Shown: in pieces, positions 18,650 to 40,746 of the stretch
Numbering within the stretch: the first letter of the stretch is position 1
Layout: every line of letters begins with the position of its first letter
From: Egicoccus sp. AB-alg2
GTDB taxonomy: Bacteria > Actinomycetota > Nitriliruptoria > Nitriliruptorales > Nitriliruptoraceae
Reading direction: 5' to 3'
DNA length: 64,000 nucleotides
Assembly (NCBI RefSeq): GCF_041821065.1
Contig: NZ_JBGUAX010000004.1
Location: 62,001-126,000, forward strand
Program-made: the position numbers and the translations under genes
The notes under the pieces: generated by a model
Told to the model about the DNA's origin: nothing
Database searches by the model: none
The model's input: only the letters and a program-made list of their open reading frames with translations

Positions 18650-19951
18650 TCACGAAGCGTTGCGAGCCGGGGTCGGTACTCGTGGCCTCTCACCACTTCT
18701 CGTGGGCTTCGGTCTGGAGGGGGCGGTCTCCTCGCGCGCGGCGGCGAGGGCGGCCGGGACCGCCTCGACCACCCATCGGACGTGCTCGGTCGTCATCCCG
18801 GGCCAGATCGGCAGGCTGACTTCCTCGTGGTAGAGCCCTGTCGCCGCCGGGAAGTCGTCGGGTCGCAGGTGGTAGCGGTCGCGGTAGTAGGGCTGCAGGT
18901 GGAGCGGGATGAAGTGGACGCTCGCGCCGACACCCGTGGCGGCCAGGTGCCGGACGAAGGCGGAGCGCACGGCCGGACCGTCGGTGACGCGGAGGGCGAA
19001 CAGGTGCCAGGCGTGCTCGTCGGCGACGTGGGCCTCCGGCGGCAGGCGCAGCCCCTCGACGTCGCCGAGGGCGTCGCGGTACGCGGCCGCGATGGCCCGG
19101 CGGGCCGCATGGTCGGCACGCAGGCGCCGGAGCTGCACCAGCCCCAGCGCCGCGGCCACGTCGGTGAGGTTGTACTTGAAGCCCGCAGCGACGACCTCGT
19201 AGTACCAGGCGTCGGCCCGGTGGTAGCGGTCGAAGACGTCCCGGTCGATGCCGTGCAGTCGCATCGTCCGCATACGCCGGGCGAGGTCCGGGTCCCGGGT
19301 CACGGCCATGCCGCCCTCGCCCGTGCACAGCGGCTTGGTCACGTAGAAGCTGAAGGCCGTGACGTCACCGAGCGTGCCGATGGCCTGGCCGCGGTGGCTG
19401 GCCGGCAGCGCATGGGCGGCGTCGTCGAGCAGGCCCCAGCCGTGCTCGCCGGCGAGCCGCGCCAGCCCCGTCATGTCGCACGGCAGGCCGGCGAAGTGGA
19501 CCGGGACGAGCGCGCGCACCTGGCGGCGTTCGGTTGGGGAGAGCCGCTGGTAGGCGGCCATGACCGTCTGCGGCGTCAGGTTGCCGGTAACGGGGTCGAC
19601 GTCGGCGAAGACCGGTTCCGCACCGAGGTGGCGGACGACCTCGGCCGTGGCCGCGAACGTGTAGGGGGTCGTGATCACCCGGCTGCCGGCGTCCACGCCC
19701 AGCGCCTCGAGCCCGAGGTGCAGGGCGGCCGTCGCCGAATTGACCGCCACGGCGTGGACGTCCGGACCCAACACCGAGGCGAAGGCGGCCTCGAAGTCCC
19801 GGCACTGCTGCCCGGTCGTCAGCCAGCCGCTGCGGAGCACCCGGACGACGGCGTCCACCGCCTCGTCGTCGATCTGGGCCACGTGGAAGGGCACCCGCCA
19901 GCCGGCGGTGCCCGACGGGCCGGTCATCGTGCGGTCGTCGACGGTGCGCAT
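18650..19951 (-). CDS. DegT/DnrJ/EryC1/StrS aminotransferase
   Basis: A 433-residue PLP-dependent sugar aminotransferase. It would put an amino group on a nucleotide-linked keto-sugar. Key parts are VNSATAALHLGL, ITTPYTFAATAEV, DDAAHALPA and the PLP lysine in SFYVTKPLCTGEGG. HFIPLHLQPYY near the end lines the active site. ATG 19951 has a strong GGAGAGGAG and overlaps the end of the fusion gene by 28 bases; a second ATG at 19927 would give an ATGA overlap. It probably makes the amino-sugar precursor used by the island's glycosyltransferases and acyltransferases, with the keto-sugar coming from the dehydratase at 31557-33428. Confidence 0.93.
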   Translation of the reverse strand: MRTVDDRTMTGPSGTAGWRVPFHVAQIDDEAVDAVVRVLRSGWLTTGQQCRDFEAAFASVLGPDVHAVAVNSATAALHLGLEALGVDAGSRVITTPYTFAATAEVVRHLGAEPVFADVDPVTGNLTPQTVMAAYQRLSPTERRQVRALVPVHFAGLPCDMTGLARLAGEHGWGLLDDAAHALPASHRGQAIGTLGDVTAFSFYVTKPLCTGEGGMAVTRDPDLARRMRTMRLHGIDRDVFDRYHRADAWYYEVVAAGFKYNLTDVAAALGLVQLRRLRADHAARRAIAAAYRDALGDVEGLRLPPEAHVADEHAWHLFALRVTDGPAVRSAFVRHLAATGVGASVHFIPLHLQPYYRDRYHLRPDDFPAATGLYHEEVSLPIWPGMTTEHVRWVVEAVPAALAAAREETAPSRPKPTRSGERPRVPTPARNAS

Positions 19952-22002
19952 GCGGCACTCCTCTCCGGTTCGGGAGGGACGGAGCTGAGGCCCACGGCTC
20001 CCAGGCTCGCGGCGGCAGTCAGCGCCACGAGGGGGAAGTGGGCGATGTAGTCCACGGCGGCGTGCACGCACAGCGCCGTGAGCAGGGCGACGCCGAGCAG
20101 CGCCGACGGGTCGGGGGCGCGCAGCAGGTCCCGGTACAGCGCCGTGAGCAGCACCAGGACGAGCGCCAGGACGGGAAGGCCCAGTTCCGCGGCGAGATGC
20201 AGGTACTCGTTGTGGGCGTAGCGCTCCCAGTCGAAGACCGCCGGGTTGCCGGCGGCACCGAAACGGCCGTAGCCGATCCCCGTCCACGGCGCCTCCCGGA
20301 CGAGGTCGATCGCCTCGCGCCAGAGACGCACCCGTTCGGTGATGCTGGGCCCGAGCGTCGCGGCCTCGAGCCCCAGCGCCGAGCGGATGGCGCCGCCGGC
20401 GCGCAGCGTCACGGCGATGGCGGCCGTCACCACCAGCAGGGCCGCCGCCACGACCCGGCCTGCGACGCGGCGGTCCATCCTCCGGCAGGCCGGCACCGCT
20501 GCGGCCAGGACCAGCAGCGTCGCGGCGGTCCCGGTGCGGCTGTTGGCGCCCACGGGGACGGTGGCGAACAGGCCGCCCACGGCCAACAGCAGCCCGCGCT
20601 GACGGCGACCGCCCACACGTTCACGCCACAGCAGGGCCGCCGCTACGGCCACGACGAAGAGCGCCGCGGTGGCGTTCGCGTACCCGAGCGGCCCGTGCAG
20701 TCGATCGTAGAGGTCACCGCGCGCCACGCCGGCGACGAACGTCACCGCGCCGACCGTCACCACGGTCGCCGGCACGAGCGCGGGTCGCTGGCTGCTGAGC
20801 CGGCGACTGAGCCCGAAGGTGCCCCCCAGCAGTGCGGCCCAGGCCAGCGGGGCGAGCAGCCCTTCGACGCCCGTGTCGTCGTCGGCAGTGTCCACTTCCG
20901 TCGGTTGCCACCCGGCCCGTTCGAGCAGGATCTCGCGGAGTGCGTCGTCGGGCGGATCGACCCGGTAGCCGTAGAAGTCGCCGGGGTCGAACACGTCCGC
21001 CGGCCGGTGCTGCTCGACCAGGCTGGGGTCGATACCGACGAACACGGACCCCTCGTGGTTCACGAGCCCGGGTGGCGCCACCGAGCCCCAGTCACCGGAC
21101 TTGATGGCGACACGCCCCTGAGTGCTCTCGAACAGGTCTCCCTCGGAGCGCAGTTGGGCATCGGCGTCGCTGACCATCCCGACGCCCGTGCCCGGCCACC
21201 CGAACTCGTAGAGCCAGTTGTTGTAGGTGTGGACGCGCGCGAAGCGGGCCAGTGGGTTGCGCTGGTGGGTGCGCAGGAACAGGTTGTGGTGCAACGTGAC
21301 GAGGTCGGCGGCCAGTTCCGGGTCCGTGGCGCTCTGCGCCGTCATGATGGTGCGGTCCCACTCCTCGAACCGGTTCCACGACGCGGTGATGCGCTGCGCA
21401 CCGTCGATGAACAGCAGCGCCATGTGGTAGCGGCCCGGCCCGGCACCGACGAACGTGCAGTGCGTGATCCAGACGTCCCGTGATCCGTCACCGACACGGA
21501 TGGCGGCGTTGCCGTCGTAGGCGTCCCAGTGCGCGGCGAAGTCGAACTGCAGGTAGGCGATGACGACGTTGGTGGCGCCGTCGACCACGAGGCCGTAGTT
21601 GTCGATGGTGACGTCGGCACCGCGACCGTCGATGGTGAGGTCGGAAGCGACCAGCAGCGGGGCCTCGAGCGTGAGGAGCCCCGTGAGCCCGGGACGGAAC
21701 CTGACGTGGGCCGGCCCGGGCTCCTCCACGGCGGCGCGCAGGCTCCCCGGGCCGCCGTCGTCCAGGTGCTCGACCCAGCGGACGGGGCCGCCCTCCCCGC
21801 CCGTCGCGCGGGCGAAGCCCTGGGGTCGGCCGAGCCCGGTGGTGGCCTCGTCCGGCTCGTCCGACTCGTCCGGCGGCGGTGCCGTCGGCGCGGGGGTCGG
21901 CGCGTCGACGTCGCGGTCGGGGCCGGCGGGCCACGCGACCACCACGACCACGACGGCCAGGATCATCGCCGTCGTGACGAGCAGCCGCCGGCGCACGCTC
22001 AT
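19924..22002 (-). CDS. pectate-lyase-like beta-helix fused to O-antigen-ligase-like membrane domain
   Basis: A 692-residue single frame. A membrane anchor (about residues 7-25) and a Pro/Asp/Glu linker precede a parallel beta-helix of the PL1 pectate-lyase type (about 60-365). It carries LVTLHHNLFLRTH and RNPLARFARVHTYNNW, with the RxPxxR catalytic signature. The Ca-binding D-G-x-x-D seen in the sister protein at 33647-35377 is missing here. From about 382 to the end come eight or nine membrane segments with ligase/Wzy_C marks: GYANATAA, NSRTGTAA and RYAHNEYLHLAAELGLP. The membrane part is shorter than a normal ligase. ATG 22002 overlaps the upstream stop (ATGA). Confidence 0.85.
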   Translation of the reverse strand: MSVRRRLLVTTAMILAVVVVVVAWPAGPDRDVDAPTPAPTAPPPDESDEPDEATTGLGRPQGFARATGGEGGPVRWVEHLDDGGPGSLRAAVEEPGPAHVRFRPGLTGLLTLEAPLLVASDLTIDGRGADVTIDNYGLVVDGATNVVIAYLQFDFAAHWDAYDGNAAIRVGDGSRDVWITHCTFVGAGPGRYHMALLFIDGAQRITASWNRFEEWDRTIMTAQSATDPELAADLVTLHHNLFLRTHQRNPLARFARVHTYNNWLYEFGWPGTGVGMVSDADAQLRSEGDLFESTQGRVAIKSGDWGSVAPPGLVNHEGSVFVGIDPSLVEQHRPADVFDPGDFYGYRVDPPDDALREILLERAGWQPTEVDTADDDTGVEGLLAPLAWAALLGGTFGLSRRLSSQRPALVPATVVTVGAVTFVAGVARGDLYDRLHGPLGYANATAALFVVAVAAALLWRERVGGRRQRGLLLAVGGLFATVPVGANSRTGTAATLLVLAAAVPACRRMDRRVAGRVVAAALLVVTAAIAVTLRAGGAIRSALGLEAATLGPSITERVRLWREAIDLVREAPWTGIGYGRFGAAGNPAVFDWERYAHNEYLHLAAELGLPVLALVLVLLTALYRDLLRAPDPSALLGVALLTALCVHAAVDYIAHFPLVALTAAASLGAVGLSSVPPEPERSAACAPSTTAR

Positions 22003-22822: not shown

Positions 22823-23755
22823 TCATGGCCGGCCGTCGACGAAGCACACCCACCCATCGGGGGTGTCGTGCACGTCGAGGTGGTGCATGCCACCGGCCGA
22901 CCAGAGCGGCCCGGCGGGGGTCAGCAGCGGGGCGGGCAACGGCGTCTCCGCGTACGTCGACGGCGTCAGTGCCTCGATGTGGATGCCCAGCACCGCCCGG
23001 CCGTAGCCGCGGCGGCAGTCCTGCGCGAACCGCACCAGGCGATCGCCGACGGGAACCGGTCGCCCGGCCGGGCGGGCGAGGCCGGCGTCGCCGGTGACGA
23101 CCGGGCTGGCGGGGTGCTCCGTCCACGGCCCGCGTGGGTGGGGTGCGTGAAGCAGCCGCAGTTCGTCGTTGGTGTGGTCGCGGCTCGTCTCGACCAGCAG
23201 GTACCAGTGCCCCTGGTGCTGGAACGGCGAGGCGTCCTTGTACGCCGCGCCCCGCAGCAGGATTCGATCGAGCTCCCAGACGGTGGGGAAAGCACGGGCG
23301 CGGTAGAGCCGGAGCGTCCCGTCGAAGGAGGACTCCGGGATCATGAACACCTCGTCGTCCGCCGCGAACACCGCCGGGTACGACAGGTGGAAGGGCTCCT
23401 CCAGCACCGGGCCCTCGTAGGTCCAGCGGCGGGCATCGGCGCTCGTGGCCAGGCCGACGAAGCCGCGCCGCTGCCCGGTCGCCACCGCCTCGAAGAAGAG
23501 GAACCAGATCCCGTGCTGTCGGATCGCGAAGGGGTCGGCGACCAGGCCGAGCCCGGCGCGTGCCAGCGTGTCCTCGTCGAAGACGGGCCGGAGGGCCGCG
23601 GCGTCCAGCGCCAGCGGGGACGGCGCGACCCCGACGCCGATGCGCCACGCCGGTGTCGGGCTCAGACGCAGGCGCACTGCCGGCGGGATGCGCGTCTGCA
23701 GCTGCCGGCGCACGGGGGCGGGCATGACCCGCCGAAGGCTCGCCTGGAGGCTCAT
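22823..23755 (-). CDS. GH43-like five-bladed propeller protein (GINT1-N-like)
   Basis: A 310-residue protein. It has repeated propeller-type strands with acidic and aromatic residues: VADPFAIRQHGIWFLFFE, GPVLEEPFHLSYPAVF, EVFMIPESS and YKDASPFQHQGHWYLLVE. These resemble the glycosyl-hydrolase 43/68-like domain found with sugar formyl- or glycosyltransferases in polysaccharide loci. No signal peptide is evident, so it probably acts in the cytoplasm on a sugar substrate. Catalytic acids cannot be assigned with certainty. ATG 23755 overlaps the upstream stop (ATGA) and has GAGGAG. Confidence 0.75.
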   Translation of the reverse strand: MSLQASLRRVMPAPVRRQLQTRIPPAVRLRLSPTPAWRIGVGVAPSPLALDAAALRPVFDEDTLARAGLGLVADPFAIRQHGIWFLFFEAVATGQRRGFVGLATSADARRWTYEGPVLEEPFHLSYPAVFAADDEVFMIPESSFDGTLRLYRARAFPTVWELDRILLRGAAYKDASPFQHQGHWYLLVETSRDHTNDELRLLHAPHPRGPWTEHPASPVVTGDAGLARPAGRPVPVGDRLVRFAQDCRRGYGRAVLGIHIEALTPSTYAETPLPAPLLTPAGPLWSAGGMHHLDVHDTPDGWVCFVDGRP

Positions 23756-24975
23756 GCGCCCCTCCTCGCGCGTAGCCCGGCCAGCGCCTGCTGCGTGCGT
23801 CCTCGCACGGTGCGCAGTCCCGCGACGGCGGCGGGCGACAGGCGCTGCGCCGCCTGCCGCCGCAGCCCGTGGCGAGCGCGCTCGGCCCGTTCGGTCAGCG
23901 CGGCCGACATGCCCGTTCGGGCGGCGTGGAACTCGTGCAGTTCGTGGCTGCCGTCCGCCCACAGCAACTTCGCCCGTGTCTCGCCGGCCCCGAACTCGGC
24001 GCGGCGGAAGACCGGTTCGCCGACCAGATCGCGCATGACCGCGACGTCGAGCAGATTGCCCGGAGCGAATGCCGCGAAGTCGTCGTCGTAGCCGATCTTC
24101 AGCGAACGGACGACGCCATCCTTCTGGAGGTTGAACTGGAACGCGACCAGGCGGTCGCCGAACCACAGCAGGTCGAGCCGCAGCCACCCCTGCGCTGCCG
24201 CCCAGCGTGCGACGTCGGTGTAGAAGGTGCGCAGATGTGGAAGGCACGCGATCGCCGTGCCCTGGGCGCCCTTCCAGCCGGACGCTTCGATGGCGAAGCA
24301 CCGCTCGAGAAGGTCCGCAGGCACCACCGCCTCGCGGAAGACCTCGTGTCGAACCCGCCAGCGTTCCTCGGCCCGGCGACGCCGCCGCCGCGCATCCTTG
24401 CGGAAGCTGCTGCTGAGACCGGCCTCGACTTCTTCCCACGACCGCGTCAGATCCACGTACGGAGCAAGCACCGGCGCGGCGAGCCGCTGTCGCGGCAGAG
24501 CCTTTGCCAGTTCCCGCCGCACCAGCGCGACGGGCCAGTCCTCGGGGCACCACTCGCGCCAGACGACCTCGCGGGGCCGGTCGTCGACGAGCCGGCGCAC
24601 CAGGGCCGCCAACACGTCGTCGTCCTCGACCACCGGCTGGCCGGCGGGATGATGGGGACGGAGCGCCGGGATCCCGACGACGCCGCGGCGCCGTTCGAAG
24701 GGCAGCACGCCGACGAGGCGCCCCGCCCGGCGCGCGGTCAGGTAGCCCGGGCGGCCGGTGCCGAACGCGCGGGCGTGACAGGCCTGCCACGTGGGCCAGT
24801 CCTGCGGCGGCCGGTGCAGCTGCCGGCACAGCTCGGCCCACTCGTCCGCGAACGACGCCGCGTCGTCGTGGCGACGCACGACGATGGCTTGGCGGTGCGG
24901 TTCCCGGGACCGGCCGGTGACGGCGCGCCCGCGAGGGGCACGCCGCCGCCGGAGCACCTCGGCGCCGACCGCCAT
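23752..24975 (-). CDS. CelD/BioF2-like GNAT acyltransferase
   Basis: A 407-residue protein of the Acetyltransf_6 group, which often sits in exopolysaccharide operons (CelD in cellulose-type systems). An N-terminal GNAT-like part (YLTARRAGRLVGVLPF) is followed by LSSSFRKDARRRRRRAEE and a second GNAT-like core (FYTDVARWAAAQGWLRLDLLWFGD, LVAFQFNLQKDG). The basic run near residue 190 is unusually long. It probably acylates a sugar or lipid-linked intermediate. ATG 24975 has GGAGG nine bases upstream and starts one base after the Wzz-like stop. Confidence 0.8.
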   Translation of the reverse strand: MAVGAEVLRRRRAPRGRAVTGRSREPHRQAIVVRRHDDAASFADEWAELCRQLHRPPQDWPTWQACHARAFGTGRPGYLTARRAGRLVGVLPFERRRGVVGIPALRPHHPAGQPVVEDDDVLAALVRRLVDDRPREVVWREWCPEDWPVALVRRELAKALPRQRLAAPVLAPYVDLTRSWEEVEAGLSSSFRKDARRRRRRAEERWRVRHEVFREAVVPADLLERCFAIEASGWKGAQGTAIACLPHLRTFYTDVARWAAAQGWLRLDLLWFGDRLVAFQFNLQKDGVVRSLKIGYDDDFAAFAPGNLLDVAVMRDLVGEPVFRRAEFGAGETRAKLLWADGSHELHEFHAARTGMSAALTERAERARHGLRRQAAQRLSPAAVAGLRTVRGRTQQALAGLRARRGA

Positions 24976-24976
24976 G

Positions 24977-26476
24977 TCAGCCGGCCTCCCGGGCCGCCGA
25001 CTGGCTGGGCGTCGACGGCGCCGGACGCGACCGGCGCCATGACGGCGTCGCCGGCGCGTCGACGTAGACGTAGCCCAGCGGGAGGTCGTCGGCCAGGTGC
25101 AGCAGCTCGGCGGCCTCGGCCACGTCGTCGAGCGAGCGGTCCCGGTGCACCGCCAGCAGCACCGGGTGGGGTGGCTCGCCGGCGGGACGGAGGCTGGGGC
25201 CCTGGTCGACCAGCACGGCCGGCTCGCGCACGACGACGAGGTCGGCGGTGCTGGAAGCCGGCGGCTGCGCGGATGGCACGACCCGGACGAACCCGGTGCC
25301 CACGACGAACGCCTGCGCCGCGCCGCTCTCGTCGAACGTCGTGCGGCGGTCACGGTCGCGCGAGCGCTTGTTGTCGACCCCGCACACCAGGACGCGGCGG
25401 CCACCGCGGGCCGCGGCCTTGGCCACGGCGATCGCCACGCCCTCGGCGTCGTCGTGGGGCCCGACCCCGCGCACGTACAGCGTCGGTGTCCCGACGGGCT
25501 CGAGCAGCTGCAGCTGTCGCCAGACCCGTGCCAACCGCAGCCCGCGTCCCCGCCGTGAGCCGGTGAACCGGCGACGGCCGCTCAGCTGGCCGCGTCGGGG
25601 TGCCAGCGTGCCGACGTGCGGCGCGGCCAGGACCGTGGCCGGGTCGCGGGCGTCCTGGACCGTCGGCGACTGCTCCATGCGTCGCCAGGCGATGGCCACC
25701 CCGACGAGCAGCCCCAGCAGCAGGCCGGCGGCGGCCAGCACCGGCAGCCCGGGCCGGGTGGGAGTCGCCTCCGCGTCGAGGTCCGCGGCGCGGATCATCC
25801 CGGACCCGAGCAACTCGGCGTCGGTCGCCACCTCACGGGCGCGCAGTTGCACGGCGAGCAGGCTCTCGAAGACGGCGGTCCGCTCGGCCGTCAGGGCGGC
25901 TTCCTCGGCCGCGCTGGTGACCGCGAGCGCCTCGTCGACCTCGGCGAGCCGCTCCTCGAGTGTCGCCTGGAACGGCGCCAGCTCCGCGGCCGCACGCTCG
26001 GCCCAGGCGAGCCCGTCACGGGCCAGCGACGACTCCAGGGTGGCCACGAACGTGTCGAGTGTCCGGTTCGCCTCCTCGGCGGTCGGCGCCGTCGCCGACA
26101 CCGCCAGACCGCCGTCGTCGACGGCGCCCATGACGGTGACCCGGCGCTGCACCGTGTCCGGGCTCACGCCGAGCTGCTCGGCGACCTCGGCCGACAGGGA
26201 CGCCGAGCGGGCCCGGTCGGTGACGGCCGCGACGGAGCCCGGGAAGCCCGGCTCGGGTCGGCCCGATGCGAACAGGCCGGCCGTACGGGTGTCCGCCAGG
26301 TACAGCGTGCTCTCCGCGCGGTAGTCGGTGGGTAACACGACCGCCAGAGCGGCACCGACCAGCGCACCCAGCAGCGCCAGGGTGACCACCAGGCGCAGGT
26401 GGGCGCGCAGCACCCGACTGAGCCCGACGTGCCCCTCGTGGGGGCGCGAGGACGGAGGAAGGACGGTCTCGGACAT
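24977..26476 (-). CDS. Wzz-like polysaccharide co-polymerase with degenerate BY-kinase domain
   Basis: A 499-residue membrane protein. One membrane helix lies near residues 28-50; a periplasmic-type region with coiled-coil helices (about 150-220) follows, and a second helix spans about 245-263. This is the chain-length-determinant layout. The cytoplasmic C-terminal part looks like a bacterial tyrosine-kinase domain (LYVRGVG, RRVLVCGVD), but the Walker A GEGKST is replaced by HDDAEG-type residues and no Tyr cluster ends the protein. Kinase activity is therefore unlikely. ATG 26476 has GGAGG. It probably sets chain length with the ligase/polymerase proteins. Confidence 0.8.
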   Translation of the reverse strand: MSETVLPPSSRPHEGHVGLSRVLRAHLRLVVTLALLGALVGAALAVVLPTDYRAESTLYLADTRTAGLFASGRPEPGFPGSVAAVTDRARSASLSAEVAEQLGVSPDTVQRRVTVMGAVDDGGLAVSATAPTAEEANRTLDTFVATLESSLARDGLAWAERAAAELAPFQATLEERLAEVDEALAVTSAAEEAALTAERTAVFESLLAVQLRAREVATDAELLGSGMIRAADLDAEATPTRPGLPVLAAAGLLLGLLVGVAIAWRRMEQSPTVQDARDPATVLAAPHVGTLAPRRGQLSGRRRFTGSRRGRGLRLARVWRQLQLLEPVGTPTLYVRGVGPHDDAEGVAIAVAKAAARGGRRVLVCGVDNKRSRDRDRRTTFDESGAAQAFVVGTGFVRVVPSAQPPASSTADLVVVREPAVLVDQGPSLRPAGEPPHPVLLAVHRDRSLDDVAEAAELLHLADDLPLGYVYVDAPATPSWRRSRPAPSTPSQSAAREAG

Positions 26477-26485
26477 GGTGGCCTC

Positions 26486-27691
26486 CTAACGGGTGGTGGC
26501 GGGCCCCTCGAGCACGAGCGGCGAGCGACGAGCGGACGGGTCGGGCGACACCGGGCGGTTCTCGGCCGCCAGGCACAGCACGATGGCGAGCAGCGCGTAC
26601 ACGGCCTTCTGCAGCTCCCAGTGCAGGGGCACCATCGCCACCAGGAGTGCGGCGATCAGTACGCGGGCGAAGACGCGGTCGAGACGGGGCATCGAGGTGG
26701 TGCGCAGCACGGTGACGACGATCACCAGCAGGAGCAGCGCGAGGCCGACGACGCCCAGTTCCATGCCGACCGACAGGAACGTGTTGTGCGCCCGTTGCGG
26801 GATGCCGGTCCGGTTGGCGATCTCCAGGTCGCCGGTACCGGCGCCGATGCCGCCGACGGGGTGGGTGCCGATGGACCCGACCGCCGCCTGCCACAGCGGC
26901 AGCCGGTGGCTGAGGTCGCCCTCGCGCAGTTCGTCGGCGACCGTGAACAGTCGCGCTTCGGTCTCCGGCGGGACGGCCGCGATCACCACCGCGCCGGCGG
27001 CCAGCAGCCCGGCGATCGCGACGAGCAGGTGCGCGGCGGTACGACGCTGGACGGTCAGCGGCACGATGGCCAGCCCGACCGCGAGGACGACCAGTGCGCC
27101 GCGGCTCCCCGTGAGCAGAGCACCCAGGGCACCGAGCGGCAGGTACGCCGCGGACAGCCAGCGCTCCCGGCCCGGCCCGGCCCGCCTGGCGAGGTACCAC
27201 GCCACCGGCACGCCCAGGGCCAGCAGACTCCCGAGGTCGTTCTCGTTGAAGCCGAAGGCGCTGTGCCGGTCCGTGGCCGTCTCGCCCAACGTCAGCAGCA
27301 CGCCGACCGCGCCGACGGCACAGCCCAGCACCCAGGCCCGCAACAGCCGGACCGTGTCGCCCGGGATGTCGGCGAACTCCCACACGAGCAGCAGCAGCAG
27401 GACCAACTGCACGAACGTCACGACGTAGGTCCGGGTCCGCTCCGCGTCGAGCGTCCACAGCAGCGACAGGATCGCCCACCCCGCCAACGCGCCGGCGAGC
27501 ACGTGCACGTCCAGGATGCGGCGGTGCCAGCCGTGGAGGAACAGCGTCACGGCGGCGGTGGCGCCGGCCAGCAGGCCGAGCAACCTCGGCGCCGTTCCGA
27601 TGGCCGGCAGCAGGATGCTGCCCTGCCACGGCAGCGTGAAGACCGTGGCGACGAGCAGCCAGAACGTCGTCCTACGCAGCGACCGGTGCAT
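26486..27691 (-). CDS. O-antigen ligase / Wzy-like polymerase
   Basis: A 401-residue protein with about ten to twelve hydrophobic segments. Family marks are FGFNENDLGSLLALGVP, LTGSRGALVVLAVG and the periplasmic loop GTHPVGGIGAGTGD...RAHNTFLSVGMELGVVGL, with the His-Asn pair of Wzy_C/WaaL proteins. It would polymerise repeat units or ligate glycan to an acceptor outside the membrane. ATG 27691 overlaps the upstream glycosyltransferase gene by 20 bases. A second ligase-like domain occurs in the fusion protein at 19924-22002. Confidence 0.87.
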   Translation of the reverse strand: MHRSLRRTTFWLLVATVFTLPWQGSILLPAIGTAPRLLGLLAGATAAVTLFLHGWHRRILDVHVLAGALAGWAILSLLWTLDAERTRTYVVTFVQLVLLLLLVWEFADIPGDTVRLLRAWVLGCAVGAVGVLLTLGETATDRHSAFGFNENDLGSLLALGVPVAWYLARRAGPGRERWLSAAYLPLGALGALLTGSRGALVVLAVGLAIVPLTVQRRTAAHLLVAIAGLLAAGAVVIAAVPPETEARLFTVADELREGDLSHRLPLWQAAVGSIGTHPVGGIGAGTGDLEIANRTGIPQRAHNTFLSVGMELGVVGLALLLLVIVVTVLRTTSMPRLDRVFARVLIAALLVAMVPLHWELQKAVYALLAIVLCLAAENRPVSPDPSARRSPLVLEGPATTR

Positions 27692-28829
27692 CGACCACCC
27701 TTTCGAGGACTCGGAGGTACGCGCGGGCCACGTCCATGGCCCGGTAGCGCTCGACGGCGGCCGGCGGAGGCCGGTCCGGATCGTCGAGTGCGGCCGCGAT
27801 GGCGCTGGCCATCGAGGTGGCGTCGCCCACCGGGACCAGCCGTCCGTGCCGACCGTCGTCGAGCACCTCGGCGGCGCCGCTCGGACAGTCGGTGGCGACC
27901 ACCCGCGTGCCGCACGCCATCGCCTCGATGAGCGCGCCCGGCAGCCCCTCCCGCCGGGAGGACAGGACGAACACACCGGCCCGCGCCATGTAGCGGTACG
28001 GGTTGGGGTCGAAGCCGGGCATGGCGACGTCGTCGGCGACGCCGAGCTCCGCCGCGCGCGTCAGGAGCCCTTCGCGTTCCGGGCCCTCGCCGAGCACGAC
28101 GAGGCGGACCGGTCGCTGGCGACGCACCTGCGCGAAGGCCTCCAGCAACGTCCCGAAGTCCTTCGGTGGTGCGAGCCGGCCGGCGCCCAGGACCACGGGC
28201 GGCGCTCCGTCCTGGAACCACGGGTGATCCAGCGGCAGGCGCGCCCGCAACGTCACGTCCGGGCCCAGCGTCGCGTTCGGGATGACGTCGATGCGGCCAC
28301 GGTCGATCTCGCAGTAGCTCGCGAGGTCGTCGGCCATGCCACGCGAGCACGCCACGACGGCGTCGGCGGTCCGGTAGCAGTGCCGTGACAGCGCGTCCGC
28401 GACGTGGGCGGCTGGACTCGGCCCCAGCGGCAGCCGCAGCGACATCGTCGTCGACGGGCGCAGGACCACGCGCGTGTCCGACCGTGCGGCCCGGGCGGCG
28501 AGCGCCCCGACGACGTTGGCGTGGTCGATGGTCGGCATGATCCAGCCGGGTCGGCGCACGCGCAGGTAGCGCACCAGGGTCGGCAGCGCGCCGCGCAGAC
28601 GTCGCTGGTCGAGGTCGACCAGGTTCACGTCGGGTGGGACCTCGGCGGCCAGCGGTCCGCGCTCGCTGCCGACCACGAGGTCGACGTCCAGCCCGAGGCG
28701 ACTGAGCGCATGCCCGAGCGTGAGGGTGATGCGCTCGCCCCCGCCGCCGGACAGGTCGGGGAGGAACAGCGCCAGGGGCCGGTGATGGGTGCGTGCACGG
28801 CTGGCGTAGCTCCAGCTGACGGCGGTCAC
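27672..28829 (-). CDS. glycosyltransferase family 4
   Basis: A 385-residue GT-B enzyme. The N-terminal domain has LFLPDLSGGGGERITLTL (acceptor side). The C-terminal domain has VVLGAGRLAPPKDFGTLLEAF and the retaining-GT4 donor motif SSRREGLPGALIEAMACG, with the E-x7-E pattern. It transfers an activated sugar to a lipid-linked intermediate in the cytoplasm. GTG 28829 overlaps the flippase stop (GTGA) and has GAGGAGG at good spacing. Confidence 0.92.
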   Translation of the reverse strand: MTAVSWSYASRARTHHRPLALFLPDLSGGGGERITLTLGHALSRLGLDVDLVVGSERGPLAAEVPPDVNLVDLDQRRLRGALPTLVRYLRVRRPGWIMPTIDHANVVGALAARAARSDTRVVLRPSTTMSLRLPLGPSPAAHVADALSRHCYRTADAVVACSRGMADDLASYCEIDRGRIDVIPNATLGPDVTLRARLPLDHPWFQDGAPPVVLGAGRLAPPKDFGTLLEAFAQVRRQRPVRLVVLGEGPEREGLLTRAAELGVADDVAMPGFDPNPYRYMARAGVFVLSSRREGLPGALIEAMACGTRVVATDCPSGAAEVLDDGRHGRLVPVGDATSMASAIAAALDDPDRPPPAAVERYRAMDVARAYLRVLERVVDAPVAA

Positions 28830-30382
28830 AGGGGGACCTCCTCGGCGTCGGGTCGCGCGGCGCGGACGTGGGCGGTGCCCAGGAGGGCGACGACCACCCG
28901 CCGACTGCGGGGTGCCGTGACGAGCGCGGCGAGTTGGCCGACCAGGTCGCTCAGGGCCGTCGTCACCCGCCACCTCGGTGACAGGCGGGTGGCGAGGAGG
29001 ATCGCGACGGCGGCGGCCAGCAGCGATCCGGCCAGTACCAGTGCCGGCGGCAGGCCGAGCCCGCGCAGCCCCTGCGACGTTGGCCAGACGAACGCGCCGA
29101 CGGCCACCGTGAGCACGGCCGCGGGGGCGTGGAGGGTGGCCCATGCCGACCAGGACAGGTCGATGCGCTGCAGGCTCAGGCGCGTCAACACGGTCGTGTT
29201 GAGGGCCATGGCGGCCAGCGCGCCGGTCGCGACGCCGGGGAGTCCCCAACGCTGGCCGACGACCGCTCCGGTGACGACGGCCGCGGCGTACAACCACCGC
29301 AGGCGCGCCAACCGGTAGACCGCCCCGGTGGCCACGATGACGCTGTCGGTGACGGCCTCCGACGCCTTCAGGTACATGCCGAAGACGATGATGTTCAGCG
29401 CCGTCCGCATCGGCAGCCACTGCGGTCCGAGCAGCAGCAGCACGATCTCGTGCGTCAGCAGCCACACGGCGACGGTCGTCGGGACCGTGAGCGCCGCCAG
29501 CGACGCCGTGCTGACGCAGAACATGTTGCGGACGCGGTGGCGTTCGTCCTGCACCGCCGCCATGGAGGGGTAGAGCACCTCGCCGAGGATGTGTCCGAAC
29601 ACCGAGGCCGGCATGCGCATCAGCCGGTAGGCCCGTTCGTAGAGGCCCAGTGCGTGGGCGCCGAGCCAACGCCCGACGACGAGGTTGTCGGCCTCGTGGG
29701 CCACGATGTAGCCGGCGTGCGAGATGGTGTAGCCCAGGCCCGTCCCGAGCAGGTCCCGCGCGGGGCCCCGGCGCAGCAACGGCAGGAAGGGGTGCGGCGC
29801 CACCAGCCAGAGCAGCACGATCTGCGCCACGGACGCCACCAGGTGCCCGCCCGTCAGGGCCCACACGCCCCAGCCGGCGGCGGCCAGGCCGACGGTGACG
29901 ACGCCGTAGCCGACGACGTAGCCCACCAGCTGGATCACGGCGAGCGGGCGGAAGCGCAGCTGCCGGCTGAGCACGACGTCGCCGAGGCTGAGCGTGCGCA
30001 CGAAGTAGGCCAGGGCCATCACCTGCAGCACCGGCGCCAGGCCGTCGAGTCGCAGGGCGTCGCCGATGCGCCCGGCGGCCAGGGCCACGCCACCGAAGAC
30101 CACGACGGCCGCGCCGACCTGCATGGTGAGCGCGACCCGCAGATGCTCGGGGCGCATGGTCTCGAGCTTGATCAGCGCCGTGGACAGCCCGGCCGTCGAC
30201 AGCAGGAAGGCCATGTTGACGACCACGAACGTGGCGGCCACGAGGCCGAACGACTCCGGAGCGATAAGCCGGGCGAGAATCGGCAGCGTGATGAGTTGGA
30301 CGAGCATCTGCCCGCCCTGCCCGAGGAAGAGGTAGGCGAGTCCTCCCACGGCACGGCGCGCCAGCGGCTGTTCGTCGCTCAT
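28826..30382 (-). CDS. Wzx-like polysaccharide flippase
   Basis: A 518-residue membrane protein with about twelve to fourteen helices, of the MOP superfamily (polysaccharide transporter). It starts ARRAVGGLAYLFLGQGGQ, and LARLIAPESFGLVA is a typical first-loop motif; YERAYRLMRMP occurs mid-protein. It would flip undecaprenyl-linked repeat units across the membrane. ATG 30382 overlaps the upstream stop (ATGA). With the Wzz-like and ligase/polymerase proteins it makes a Wzx/Wzy-type assembly line. Confidence 0.92.
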   Translation of the reverse strand: MSDEQPLARRAVGGLAYLFLGQGGQMLVQLITLPILARLIAPESFGLVAATFVVVNMAFLLSTAGLSTALIKLETMRPEHLRVALTMQVGAAVVVFGGVALAAGRIGDALRLDGLAPVLQVMALAYFVRTLSLGDVVLSRQLRFRPLAVIQLVGYVVGYGVVTVGLAAAGWGVWALTGGHLVASVAQIVLLWLVAPHPFLPLLRRGPARDLLGTGLGYTISHAGYIVAHEADNLVVGRWLGAHALGLYERAYRLMRMPASVFGHILGEVLYPSMAAVQDERHRVRNMFCVSTASLAALTVPTTVAVWLLTHEIVLLLLGPQWLPMRTALNIIVFGMYLKASEAVTDSVIVATGAVYRLARLRWLYAAAVVTGAVVGQRWGLPGVATGALAAMALNTTVLTRLSLQRIDLSWSAWATLHAPAAVLTVAVGAFVWPTSQGLRGLGLPPALVLAGSLLAAAVAILLATRLSPRWRVTTALSDLVGQLAALVTAPRSRRVVVALLGTAHVRAARPDAEEVPL

Positions 30383-31560
30383 CCGCGCACCGCGTCGACC
30401 GTGACCCGCTGCAGGAGGGCCTCCCACTGGTCGAGGACCCGTTCGCGGTCATGGCGGGCGCGCACGTGCGCCTGGCCGTGGGCGCCCATCGCCGCCCGCG
30501 TCGCCGCCGGGAGTGCGCACGTCCGGGCGAGCCGGTCGGCGAGTGCGCGCCAGTCACCGACGTCGACGAGGAAGCCGCTCACCTCGTCCTCGACCACCTC
30601 CTCGGTGCCGCCGGCGCGGGTGGCCACCACCGGCACCTCGCGCATCAGGGCCTCGATGGCGGCGTTGGGGGTGCCCTCCCACGCCGACGACGACACCAGG
30701 GCGTCGCTGGCGGCCAGCAGGTCGGCGACGTCGTCGCGCCACCCGAGCAGGTGCACGTCGGCCGTGATGCCCAGGGCACCGGCCAGATCTGCCAGTGGCG
30801 AGGTGTCACCGTCGCCCGCGATCAGGAGCCGGAACGCCGACCCGGCGCGCCGTGCCCGGGCAGCGGCCCGCAGCATGGTGGCGTGGTCCTTGCGCGGCGC
30901 GATGTGCCCCAGCGCGAGGAAGACGAACTCGTCGGGGGCGATCGCCAGTTCGCCCCGCACCCGGGCACGGGTGTCCGCATCGACCGGTGCCACGTCGTCG
31001 ACGGCGTTCGGGATCACGACCAGCCGATCCGGATGCACGAGGCCGCGCTCGACGAGTCGACGCGCCACACGCGCGGCATTCGTCGTCGTCACCGCGGCCA
31101 GGCCGTCGGTGCGCCGGATCCACCACTCGCGCGGGGCACCCCCGAAGCGGTCGGCGCGGATGGAGGAGACGACGGCCGGCACGCCTGCGGCGCGCCCCGC
31201 GAGGCGGCCGAGCAGGTTGGCCTGGTAGTCGAAGCTCACGACGGCATGGGGACGCAGCCGACGCAGCAGCAGCGCGCCGGCGGTGAGCGCGCTGGCGGCC
31301 CGGACGGGCCGGCGGGCCGGCAGCTCCACGAGCGGGATCCCGGCCGCAGCGAGGTCGTCCTCGTGACCCGGCCAGTCGAGCATCCGCGCCACCGTCACGC
31401 GATGACCGCGCTCGGCGAGGCCGACCGCCGCACGGACCAGCTGCGTCTCCGCGCCGCCACGCGCCACGCTGTTCGCGAGGAACACCAGCCGCAGCCCCGA
31501 ACCGGCGACAGCAGGCACCGACGAGGCGGACTCGCCCGTTCGGGAGACGACGCCGGTCAC
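30379..31560 (-). CDS. glycosyltransferase family 4
   Basis: A 393-residue GT-B enzyme. N-terminal VFLANSVARGGAETQLVRAA marks the Gly-rich acceptor loop. LALGHIAPRKDHATMLRA and SSSAWEGTPNAAIEALMREVP give the donor-binding GT4 motif with the E-x7-E pair. It probably adds one sugar of the repeat unit. GTG 31560 overlaps the dehydratase stop (GTGA). The substrate is unknown. Confidence 0.92.
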   Translation of the reverse strand: MTGVVSRTGESASSVPAVAGSGLRLVFLANSVARGGAETQLVRAAVGLAERGHRVTVARMLDWPGHEDDLAAAGIPLVELPARRPVRAASALTAGALLLRRLRPHAVVSFDYQANLLGRLAGRAAGVPAVVSSIRADRFGGAPREWWIRRTDGLAAVTTTNAARVARRLVERGLVHPDRLVVIPNAVDDVAPVDADTRARVRGELAIAPDEFVFLALGHIAPRKDHATMLRAAARARRAGSAFRLLIAGDGDTSPLADLAGALGITADVHLLGWRDDVADLLAASDALVSSSAWEGTPNAAIEALMREVPVVATRAGGTEEVVEDEVSGFLVDVGDWRALADRLARTCALPAATRAAMGAHGQAHVRARHDRERVLDQWEALLQRVTVDAVRG

Positions 31561-33646: not shown

Positions 33647-35377
33647 CTAGCGCTGCCAGCCGGCCTGGGCGGCGATCCGGTCGCGCAGCGCCTGGCGCTC
33701 CGCGGCCGTGCCGACCGGGTCGGGCCGGTAGCTGTGGTCCGCCGACGGGTTCATCGTGACCCGTGACGCATCGGACGTGTCGGCCGTCACCCCGGAGGCG
33801 AACCAGCTGCCGACGTCCTTCGCATACCCGCGACCCGAGCCCTCGTTGCTCGCGAAGATCGCGCGGTAGGGCTTGGTGTGGTCGAAGATGTTGCGCTCGG
33901 ACAGGACCTGCGCCCCGGACGAGGACACGATCGCCTCACCGTACGAGCCGTTCCAGTCCCAACGGTCGAACCAGTTGTTCCACACGTGGAACCGGCCGAA
34001 GCGCGCCAGCGGCTGCCGCTGGGAGTTGCGGTCGAAGTGGTTGTGGTGGATGGAGACGAGGTCGGCCGCCTCGGACCGGTTGGTCGGGTCCGTGGCGAGC
34101 AGGATCGTCTTGTCCCACCGGACGAACTTGTTCCACGACACCGTGATGCGGTTGGCCTGACGCAGGATGTCCACCGCGCCGTCGAGGTTGCCCGGACCCG
34201 AGCCGAGGAACGTGTTCTTGTGGATCCACACGCGATCGGTGCCCGGGTTCGGCCAGCCGATCGTGAAGGCGGAGTTGCCCTGGTAGTAGCGGTGCTCGGC
34301 GGCGAAGTCGAACACCAGGTTCGTGGCGATCACGTTGTTGGCGTTGATGAAGAAGCCGTGGTTCTGGATGATCGGGCGCGCACCGCGACCGTCGATGGTC
34401 GTGTTCGCGGTGGGTCGGACGGGGCTCTGCAGGCGGATGCGCGCCCCGGTGCCCGGCGGGAACACCTTGGGGTCGAAGCGGATCCACTTGGCCCCGCTGG
34501 CCTGCGCCGCGGCCCGCAGCGAGCCGGCACCGCTGTCGTTGGTGTTGGTGACCCAGATGGTCTGGCCGCCCTGGCCGCCGGTCGTGCGGTGGCCGTAGCC
34601 GACGAGTTCCTTCAGCAGTGCCGCGTGGCTGTCCGGATCCGTGGACCCGCTCGACGGCGGCGCCGGCGCGGGCTCGGTCGGCGCGGGCGCGGGCTCCGTC
34701 GGCGCCGGCTCCGGCGGTGCCGACGGCACCTTGGGACCGGTGCCCGGGCGCAGCGCCCGGTCGAGGAAGGAAGCCATCTGTCCCCGCAACACGTCGCTGT
34801 TCGTGCAGAAGTATCCGGGGCGGCAGCCGGCGGTGACGCGGGCGGCGGCCAGCGCCCGGACGTTGGCCTCGTGGACGGAGCCCTCGATGTCGTAGAAGGT
34901 CGGCGCCTTGGCGGCCGGCAGGTCGAAGGCACGGACGAGCATGGAAGCCATCTGTCCGCGCGACACGCTGGCGCCGGGTCGGAAGCTCCCGTCGGCCTTG
35001 CCCTCGATGATGCCGGCCTCGGCGGCGGCGGCGATCGCCCGGGCGTGGAAGTGGTCGGCGGCGACGTCCTGGAAGTCGGCCGAGCCCTCGGGTGCCAGTT
35101 CGAGCGCCCGCACGATGAGCGCGGCGGCCTGGGCACGGGTCACGGCGTCACCGGGGCAGTAGCGTCGCGGCGCGCAGCCTTCGACGACACCTTCTTCGGC
35201 GAGTCGGTCGATGGCGTCCGCGTGGACGTTGTCCTCGAGGTCCCGGAAGCGCGTGTCGCTGGCGTCGGCTGGGCCGGCGAGGGCCACGAGGCTCGATGCG
35301 AGCACGGCGAAGGACAGTAGGACGACTAGGGTGCGCGCGCGTGTGAGCGGCGTCCCCCGAGCGTTGGACAGCAGCAC
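33647..35377 (-). CDS. secreted SLH-domain protein with pectate-lyase-like (PL1) domain
   Basis: A 576-residue exported protein. A signal peptide (about residues 14-39, ending PADAS) precedes three SLH modules (about 43-95, 103-155, 163-213) that would bind cell-wall secondary polymers. A linker of repeated EPAP/TEPAP units follows, then a PL1 right-handed beta-helix (about 260-576). The lyase part keeps LDGAVDI (Ca-binding), VSIHHNHFDRN and RQPLARFGRFHVWNNW with RxPxxR. GTG 35377 has GGAGA and directly precedes the signal peptide. It ends in AGWQR, the point where the sister protein continues into a ligase domain. Confidence 0.88.
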   Translation of the reverse strand: MLLSNARGTPLTRARTLVVLLSFAVLASSLVALAGPADASDTRFRDLEDNVHADAIDRLAEEGVVEGCAPRRYCPGDAVTRAQAAALIVRALELAPEGSADFQDVAADHFHARAIAAAAEAGIIEGKADGSFRPGASVSRGQMASMLVRAFDLPAAKAPTFYDIEGSVHEANVRALAAARVTAGCRPGYFCTNSDVLRGQMASFLDRALRPGTGPKVPSAPPEPAPTEPAPAPTEPAPAPPSSGSTDPDSHAALLKELVGYGHRTTGGQGGQTIWVTNTNDSGAGSLRAAAQASGAKWIRFDPKVFPPGTGARIRLQSPVRPTANTTIDGRGARPIIQNHGFFINANNVIATNLVFDFAAEHRYYQGNSAFTIGWPNPGTDRVWIHKNTFLGSGPGNLDGAVDILRQANRITVSWNKFVRWDKTILLATDPTNRSEAADLVSIHHNHFDRNSQRQPLARFGRFHVWNNWFDRWDWNGSYGEAIVSSSGAQVLSERNIFDHTKPYRAIFASNEGSGRGYAKDVGSWFASGVTADTSDASRVTMNPSADHSYRPDPVGTAAERQALRDRIAAQAGWQR

Positions 35378-39326: not shown

Positions 39327-40117
39327 TCGCCCACGTCGCCGCGCCGCACCAGCCGGTGGCCGTTGGCCCGCAGGTCACGCATCGCGGCCCGGGTCGGCAT
39401 GCCGTGGTAGGAGCGGGCCCGGTGGTCCTGCGGCGCGCCGGCGGGCAGCCGCCCCTGGGCGAGCGTGTGGCCGACCACGTCGGCGAGGGCCGGACCTCCG
39501 ACGGCCGCCTGGCGCAGGAACAGCGCCAGGACGGACATCCGCGGCGTGATCGGTACGACCGGGGCGCGGAGGATCGCACCGGTGTCGAACCGCTCCTCCA
39601 TGACGTGCACGCTGACGCCCGTGGCCCGGCGGCCCTGCGCGAGCACCCACACGTACGGGGCCAGGCCGGCGTCCGCCGGCAGTTGCGAGGAGTGCACGTT
39701 GACGGCCCCCGCGGACGCCGCCTCCAGCACCTCGACCGGGACGCGCATCGGGCACGACACCGACACCAGCAGCGAAGGTCCCGCCCGCAACGTGTCGAGG
39801 AGCTCGGGTGCGTCCGGGGTCGTCACGTAGCGCACCGGGATCCCCAGCGAAGCCGCCAGCTGCGGGACGAAGGGTTCCGGCAGGCGGCCGGACGCTCGTG
39901 CCAGCAGCGGTAGCAGGTACGTGAACGCCTTGTAGCCGACGTAGCGCACCCCGCTGCGGCGGACGTAGCGCCAGATCGAGCGCACGCGTCCGGCGTCGCT
40001 GCGGATGCCGGTGACGACGTACACGGCCGCGACCCGGTCGGCGAACCGACGCAGGGTCGGGGCGAGGAAGAGCTTGGCGAAGGCGTTGCCGTTGGTGACG
40101 ACCACGACACGGGTCAC
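39260..40117 (-). CDS. formyltransferase-fold protein (Fmt-like, sugar N-formyltransferase candidate)
   Basis: A 285-residue protein. The core has VNVHSSQLPADAGLAPYVWVLAQG (the N-x-H and substrate loop of the formyltransferase fold) and SVHVMEERFDTGAI, which carries the conserved Asp. The typical N-terminal Rossmann strand is VVVVTNGNAFAK. It uses 10-formyl-tetrahydrofolate in known relatives. Its setting in a glycan operon next to amino-sugar genes suggests N-formylation of an amino-sugar rather than of Met-tRNA. GTG 40117 overlaps the sugar-transferase stop (GTGA). Confidence 0.8.
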   Translation of the reverse strand: MTRVVVVTNGNAFAKLFLAPTLRRFADRVAAVYVVTGIRSDAGRVRSIWRYVRRSGVRYVGYKAFTYLLPLLARASGRLPEPFVPQLAASLGIPVRYVTTPDAPELLDTLRAGPSLLVSVSCPMRVPVEVLEAASAGAVNVHSSQLPADAGLAPYVWVLAQGRRATGVSVHVMEERFDTGAILRAPVVPITPRMSVLALFLRQAAVGGPALADVVGHTLAQGRLPAGAPQDHRARSYHGMPTRAAMRDLRANGHRLVRRGDVGDYLGALRADEAPAEPTAAAASA

Positions 40118-40746
40118 GTGGGCTCCGATCCGAGGTGCTCGGCGGGTGACGCGACCGCACCGCCGCGCAGGGCGCCGGCCGTCTGCAACACGATGCGCAG
40201 GTCGCCGAGCAGGGACCGGCGGCGCAGGTACGCGGCGGACAGCCGCAGCTTGGCCGGCAACACCACCTCGACGTAGTAGCGCTCCGGGTCCGGGTGGCCG
40301 GCCAGCAGTTCGCCCTCGCACCGGAACGCCAGACTCGCCGGATCGGTCAGGCCCGGGCGGTGGCGCAGGACCTCGGCCTGCTCCGGGCGCGTCGGGTCGA
40401 CGTACTCCGGTACCTCGGGACGCGGCCCGACGAAGGACATCTCGCCCCGTACGACGTTGACCAGTTGTGGCAGTTCGTCGAGCTTGTGCTGGCGCAGCCG
40501 GCGCCCGACGGCGGTGGTCCGCGGGTCGGTCGCGCCGACACTGAGCTGGCCCTCGCGGTCGGCGCCCACCCGCATCGTGCGGAACTTGAGCAGGGTGAAC
40601 GTCGTGCCGCCCCGTCCCACCCGTTGCTGGCGGTACAGCACCGGGCCGCGCGACGACCACCGGATCAGCGCGGCCACGAGCGCGAGCACCGGTGCCAGCA
40701 GCACCAGCAGTGCGACGGCCAGGACCACCTCCAACCAGCGGGGCAT
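40114..40746 (-). CDS. initiating sugar-1-phosphate transferase (WcaJ/PglC type)
   Basis: A 210-residue member of the bacterial sugar transferase family, short form with one N-terminal membrane segment (about residues 5-27). Marks are GPVLYRQQRVGRGGTTFTLLKFRTM, RLRQHKLDELPQLVNV and GEMSFVGPRPEVPEY with the Asp-Glu catalytic pair. It puts the first sugar-1-phosphate on undecaprenyl phosphate and so starts the repeat unit. The start overlaps the epimerase stop (TGATG). Confidence 0.94.
   Translation of the reverse strand: MPRWLEVVLAVALLVLLAPVLALVAALIRWSSRGPVLYRQQRVGRGGTTFTLLKFRTMRVGADREGQLSVGATDPRTTAVGRRLRQHKLDELPQLVNVVRGEMSFVGPRPEVPEYVDPTRPEQAEVLRHRPGLTDPASLAFRCEGELLAGHPDPERYYVEVVLPAKLRLSAAYLRRRSLLGDLRIVLQTAGALRGGAVASPAEHLGSEPT

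Follow-up and report, generated by a model that had tools for sequence, protein, structure and literature searches.

A PL1 lyase domain and a Wzy_C ligase/polymerase core joined in one reading frame of a polysaccharide-synthesis operon in Egicoccus sp. AB-alg2

In a 64,000-nucleotide stretch of the Egicoccus sp. AB-alg2 genome (hereafter the window), one gene of a polymer-synthesis operon encodes a protein in which a membrane-anchored, beta-helical lyase runs directly into a ligase/polymerase core of the Wzy_C type. This is a new architecture built from known families, seen in one assembly. The protein is read here as a membrane assembly enzyme whose own lyase engages the polymer made by the cluster and most likely cuts it, a reading to which a probability of roughly 45% is given. 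The broader statement, that the lyase acts on the cluster's own polymer whether by cutting or by gripping alone, is considerably safer and can be called probable. The analysis itself shows the intact frame, the two predicted folds, the kept ligase residues and lyase base position, the topology argument and the operon context, whereas the identity of the polymer, the working of each half as an enzyme and the coupling of lyase to ligase are inferred. The features on which the argument draws are collected in Table 1.

Table 1. Features of the fusion gene and its operon, with positions in the window.
Feature	Position	Strand	Basis or remark
Fusion gene, 692 aa	19924..22002	minus	ATG start overlaps upstream stop; Pfam and frame
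N-terminal membrane anchor / uncleaved signal, residues 3-24	21931..21996	minus	Hydropathy, helix 3-23 in model, alignments
Complete VexL-type PL1 beta-helix, residues 56-366	20905..21837	minus	Pfam, PDB sequence match, model, structural match
YHMALLF, residues 192-198, site of lost acidic pair D-x-x-x-D	21409..21429	minus	Alignments
RNPLAR, residues 248-253, holding catalytic-base Arg position R248	21244..21261	minus	Alignments
Junction: AGWQ (363-366) and acidic linker 367-381	20860..20916	minus	Low model confidence (flexible)
Nine-helix GT-C_B ligase/polymerase core, residues 378-673	19984..20871	minus	Pfam, model, WaaL 7tpg match
R557, conserved ligase-loop arginine (ERVRLW)	20332..20334	minus	Alignment, WaaL match
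H597, conserved ligase-loop histidine (AHNEY)	20212..20214	minus	Alignment, WaaL match
Wzz/chain-length-like membrane protein	24977..26476	minus	Assigned from sequence and location, without a Pfam match
Separate full-length Wzy_C protein (canonical polymerase/ligase)	26486..27785, start approximate	minus	Pfam
Wzx-type flippase	28826..30427	minus	
Sister: S-layer-homology domains and PL1 lyase, ending AGWQR before the stop	33647..35377	minus	Pfam, alignment
Initiating sugar-phosphate transferase (Bac_transf)	40114..40746	minus	

A single frame across two domains

The first-pass annotation of this DNA described a single uninterrupted lyase-ligase frame, and its coordinates were right; the strand, which it did not give, is minus. 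The frame opens with an ATG (MSV...) at 22002 and closes with a stop at 19924-19926, with no internal stop or frameshift, and the plus strand over 19924-22002 holds no comparable frame. Third-position GC stays between 0.85 and 0.97 from end to end, junction included. The start shares the sequence ATGA with the stop of an upstream GNAT gene, a GAGGA ribosome-binding-like stretch lies 5' of the ATG, and a downstream DegT aminotransferase starts where the fusion gene ends; the overlap upstream and the abutting start downstream make the gene a member of a tight operon. Pfam recognises both halves of the product: PF00544 at residues 118-265 (60.4 bits, cut-off 24) and PF04932, Wzy_C, at residues 478-616 (70 bits, cut-off 31.7).

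A second PL1 lyase of the window (the sister in Table 1) ends in AGWQR, and this terminus had been proposed to mark the fusion joint. The same AGWQ is indeed found at residues 363-366 of the fused protein (window 20916-20905), which reads ...ERAGWQPTEV where the sister ends ...AQAGWQR. In full, the fused protein at the joint reads ...ERAGWQPTEVDTADDDTG, after which the first ligase helix follows. The lyase domain is complete at this point, since its beta-helix match to VexL extends to residue 367.

Such a frame could also arise if a sequencing or assembly artefact had erased a stop or frameshift between two genes, and the fusion is known from one assembly only. Against this, the gene lies on a 508-kb contig, and the 401-base junction region has no second copy in the genome, which makes repeat-driven misassembly unlikely. 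The frame holds no stop or frameshift near residues 365-380, codon periodicity is unbroken across the joint, and the overlap with neighbouring genes also speaks against an error. The ligase half, moreover, is without the first helix of its relatives, and so would not be a normal separate gene. An artefact is accordingly very improbable, the least credible of the explanations considered here.

The lyase half

The N-terminal half had been taken for a beta-helix, and its PF00544 score and an AlphaFold2 model (confidence about 72-96 pLDDT) bear this out. The model of residues 51-367, used for structural comparison, matches VexL (6fi2) with a Z-score of 38.0 (rmsd 2.5, 300 residues aligned, 30% identity), and also matches pectate lyases as a right-handed parallel beta-helix (Z about 30-36). 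By sequence, too, VexL is the nearest solved relative (E 5.9e-30), with pectate lyases at 2.5e-17 and weaker.

In a midpoint-rooted tree with long branches, the fused lyase and its SLH-anchored sister form a pair (support 99/97) within a six-row clade (100/99) completed by three lyases of an Egibacteraceae genome (G050) and a Caballeronia VexL-like protein, and this clade is separate from the ordinary actinomycetal pectate lyases. The VexL-like gene of the Caballeronia plasmids adjoins polysaccharide export and ABC-transporter genes. The nearest relatives of the fused lyase are lyases encoded in capsule-synthesis loci, not pectin degraders, and the label pectate lyase used in the first-pass annotation is therefore misleading. 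That the lyase instead attacks pectin or some other foreign polymer as food, with the ligase incidental, would agree with the naming of PF00544 as the pectate lyase family, but is hard to reconcile with these closest relatives and with a gene placed within a polymer-synthesis operon, where no uronate-catabolism genes were seen among the neighbours scanned; it is regarded as very unlikely.

The active site is only partly that of its relatives. RxPxxR is present and D-G-x-x-D absent, as had been observed before: the alignment places R248 and R253 in the retained motif, with R248 aligning to the equivalent position of VexL-like, sister and classical lyases, and shows H-M-A-L-L at residues 193-197 where the sister has D-G-A-V-D. 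A further upstream Asp of the calcium site is also missing, so that all calcium ligands are changed. Arg217 stands where relatives retain Lys, and Leu takes the position of the second Arg in the VexL-type RNPR. Because the calcium-binding acidic residues are missing, the fused lyase was not filed as a pectate lyase. A second catalytic Arg of VexL, assigned through PfPL1 numbering, was dropped from consideration, as the residue numbers did not match the printed sequence.

From the lost D-G-x-x-D the earlier annotation had argued that the domain may bind rather than cut, an argument that is weak. VexL is reported to work without metal, the C5 proton being abstracted by an arginine (PMC11229556), and the Caballeronia VexL-like relative is also without the acidic pair. 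Loss of the calcium motif argues against cutting only for calcium-dependent pectate lyases; given the metal independence reported for VexL, it is poor evidence for a dead enzyme and does not exclude cutting, and it is no evidence for a live enzyme either.

The proposal behind that annotation, in which a catalytically dead lyase fold grips the polymer near the ligase and either presents it or sets processivity, is possible though doubtful. The changes just described (the acidic pair to H193 and L197, Lys to Arg217, the second RNPR Arg to Leu) all count against cutting, as does the long branch of the fused lyase (1.04, versus 0.81 for the sister), which may reflect relaxed constraint; binding without cutting is open to the fused copy precisely because every calcium ligand and the usual Lys are altered in it. 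The sister, in which DGAVD, Lys and RxPxxR are all intact, could do the cutting for the cluster. On the other side stand the retained Arg at the base position and RxPxxR, the conservative nature of a Lys-to-Arg exchange, and the report that VexL cuts without metal, and cutting is the reading preferred here.

The ligase half and membrane topology

Modelled alone with 22 relatives, the C-terminal half gave a confident structure (pLDDT 86.5, pTM 0.85) that matches WaaL (7tpg) with a Z-score of 17.8 over 263 residues (rmsd 4.2). The next structural matches are FtsW/RodA (Z 8.6-12); Foldseek/VIA matches ranking under these were disregarded, many being chance helical ones. R557 and H597 are conserved at 90% or more in a 23-row alignment and align with the loop Arg and His of WaaL 7tpg, and the Y-x-N-A and P-x-x-G-x-G motifs are likewise intact. 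The ligase-like character claimed earlier for this half thus stands on its PF04932 score, the WaaL match and the two kept residues; sequence and model point to a ligase/polymerase core, between the two functions of which the sequence does not separate.

The WaaL of Cupriavidus metallidurans (7tpg/7tpj) and Wzy_C proteins have in common with the fusion a GT-C_B core and an outer-face loop carrying Arg and His. The match to WaaL begins at WaaL residue 78, however, and the first helices of the full-length protein are missing from the ligase half, being replaced by the anchor and a 310-residue lyase. Closest to this half are short Wzy_C ligases (L004, L005, L013, L014 and L025), which have no lyase but a first helix of their own; ahead of the part alignable with the fusion they carry one helix and a G-G-x-P loop. 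The anchor at residues 3-24 occupies the place of that helix, and the lyase that of a would-be first outer loop. With the anchor in the position of the first helix, membrane parity and the number of crossings are unchanged; the arrangement could have arisen either by insertion of the lyase behind that helix or by its replacement. An N-in reading places the arginine-rich loops inside and both the lyase and the catalytic loop (residues 537-608) outside, and parity and topology together therefore predict that lyase and catalytic loop share one outer face. The membrane anchor and extracytoplasmic lyase of the first-pass annotation agree with this predicted topology and with the helix at residues 3-23 of the model.

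The surrounding operon

The fusion gene and the full-length Wzy_C gene at 26486-27785 bring two ligase/polymerase cores into one operon, which also holds glycosyltransferases, a PseB-like dehydratase, a PseC-like aminotransferase and acetyltransferases. Beyond a short plus-strand stretch lie a formyltransferase, the initiating sugar-phosphate transferase and a LegB/dTDP-glucose-dehydratase-like enzyme. This gene set fits a Wzx/Wzy-type polymer with amino sugars. Lyase action needs uronic acid in the polymer. No UDP-sugar dehydrogenase was seen in the cluster, though the genome has three, and uronic acid in this polymer is for that reason unproven.

The sister lies at the end of this synthesis operon and is a polymer lyase anchored in the wall; its best solved relative by sequence is again VexL, ahead of pectate lyases. 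A further gene of this bacterial polysaccharide operon, at 22823-23785 on the minus strand, matches PF24793, the N-terminal domain of glucosamine inositolphosphorylceramide transferase 1 (E 9e-46).

Occurrence in other genomes

The search covered 61 relatives, 66 genomes of the class, 396 of the phylum and two further classes, amounting to about 420 distinct actinomycetal genomes. No other PL1-Wzy_C fusion was found among these, nor in the plasmids or phages searched, and nothing relevant to a lyase/ligase fusion was found in the literature searched; the earlier statement that no described protein of this design was known accords with these results. Among the loci compared, both models match only in the fusion gene itself. 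Same-genus genomes gave no match to the lyase half and only a weak match to the ligase half, and same-family genomes gave no lyase match. A contig scan with the lyase alignment, made with two short patterns and returning five loci, counts as weak negative evidence.

The nearest relatives of the ligase half, at 30-36% identity, come from other Actinomycetota and are short Wzy_C proteins. Two of them, in genome G255 (L013:1204-3090, plus strand; L025:709-2607, minus strand), carry a C-terminal polysaccharide deacetylase domain (PF01522), a second fusion of synthesis with modification, and union with carbohydrate enzymes has thus taken place on more than one occasion in this ligase clade. Wzy_C ligases extended at the C-terminus by long TPR-type regions were also seen elsewhere in the phylum (L023:511-2646, minus strand; L024).

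In the Egibacteraceae genome G050 (YX2bin43), a VexL-like lyase gene immediately follows, on the downstream side, a Wzy gene whose product is 39% identical to the window's Wzy, in a cluster that shares two related glycosyltransferases with that of the window (47% and 44%). The adjacency of polymerase and lyase as separate genes supports a shared substrate. In the same genome (L065/L066), about 9 kb hold three genes for VexL-like PL1 lyases, and a weak CBM5/12-like N-terminal match was seen in at least one. These genes adjoin a polysaccharide cluster that includes a sulfotransferase, and a Wzy gene immediately precedes one of the lyases.

A singleton among some 420 genomes could be an accident, in which a duplicate of the sister lyase fused with a short ligase next to it, that ligase lost its first helix, and the product has since been drifting with little function. 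The missing ligase helix, the long lyase branch and the weak or absent matches in same-genus genomes all speak for such a history. The ligase motifs (Y-x-N-A, R557, P-x-x-G-x-G and H597) are nonetheless intact and membrane parity is preserved, the beta-helix is complete and confidently modelled, codon usage is even, and start and stop overlap with the operon neighbours, so that an accidental fusion appears unlikely.

Proposed mechanism and known systems

In the preferred reading, the fusion would act as a single cytoplasmic-membrane protein of a Wzx/Wzy-type exopolysaccharide pathway, in which the N-terminal helix would anchor an exported VexL-type lyase that continues directly into a GT-C-fold ligase/polymerase core. 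Judging from its fold, R557 and H597, the core would join chains borne on undecaprenyl diphosphate, and the lyase, on the same outer face as the joining loop, would engage the emerging, presumably uronate-containing, polymer of the cluster. Metal-independent beta-elimination from R248 would then most likely trim or release chains at the assembly site. Counting against this reading are the altered active site and long branch of the lyase, the first helices missing from the ligase half, the full-length Wzy already present in the cluster, the unproven uronic acid and the occurrence of the fusion in a single genome. A more specific form of this idea, offered tentatively, is a bifunctional polymerase/ligase-lyase that joins and cuts the same lipid-linked polysaccharide, its two opposing sites setting chain length or release.

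VexL, AlgL and WceF are lyases or hydrolases encoded in the synthesis loci of their own polymers, and the fused lyase may be the built-in counterpart of such separate capsule-locus depolymerases. VexL, the Vi-antigen depolymerase of Achromobacter denitrificans (PL1 subfamily 13), has the beta-helix and the RNP arginine in common with the fusion; both are encoded in a polymer-synthesis locus, and neither keeps the classical calcium pair. VexL, however, is free in the periplasm and belongs to an ABC-transporter pathway, whereas the fused lyase is tethered to the membrane and runs into a ligase, and differs from VexL in the exchange of Lys for Arg and of the second RNPR Arg for Leu, with RxPxxR retained. 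AlgL and similar enzymes (PMC5099689, PMC7949094) resemble the fusion in that a degrading enzyme is produced together with the synthesis machinery, but AlgL has been argued to be free, dispensable and periplasmic, and at most loosely associated with the complex (PMC5099689), in contrast to a lyase covalently linked to the joining enzyme.

Whether enzymes of the VexL, AlgL and WceF type work within the assembly machinery or clear up as free proteins is a standing question. A natural covalent fusion puts the lyase at the joining enzyme, so that action at the assembly site can be tested on a single protein. The fusion also hints at a way to design polysaccharides of set length.
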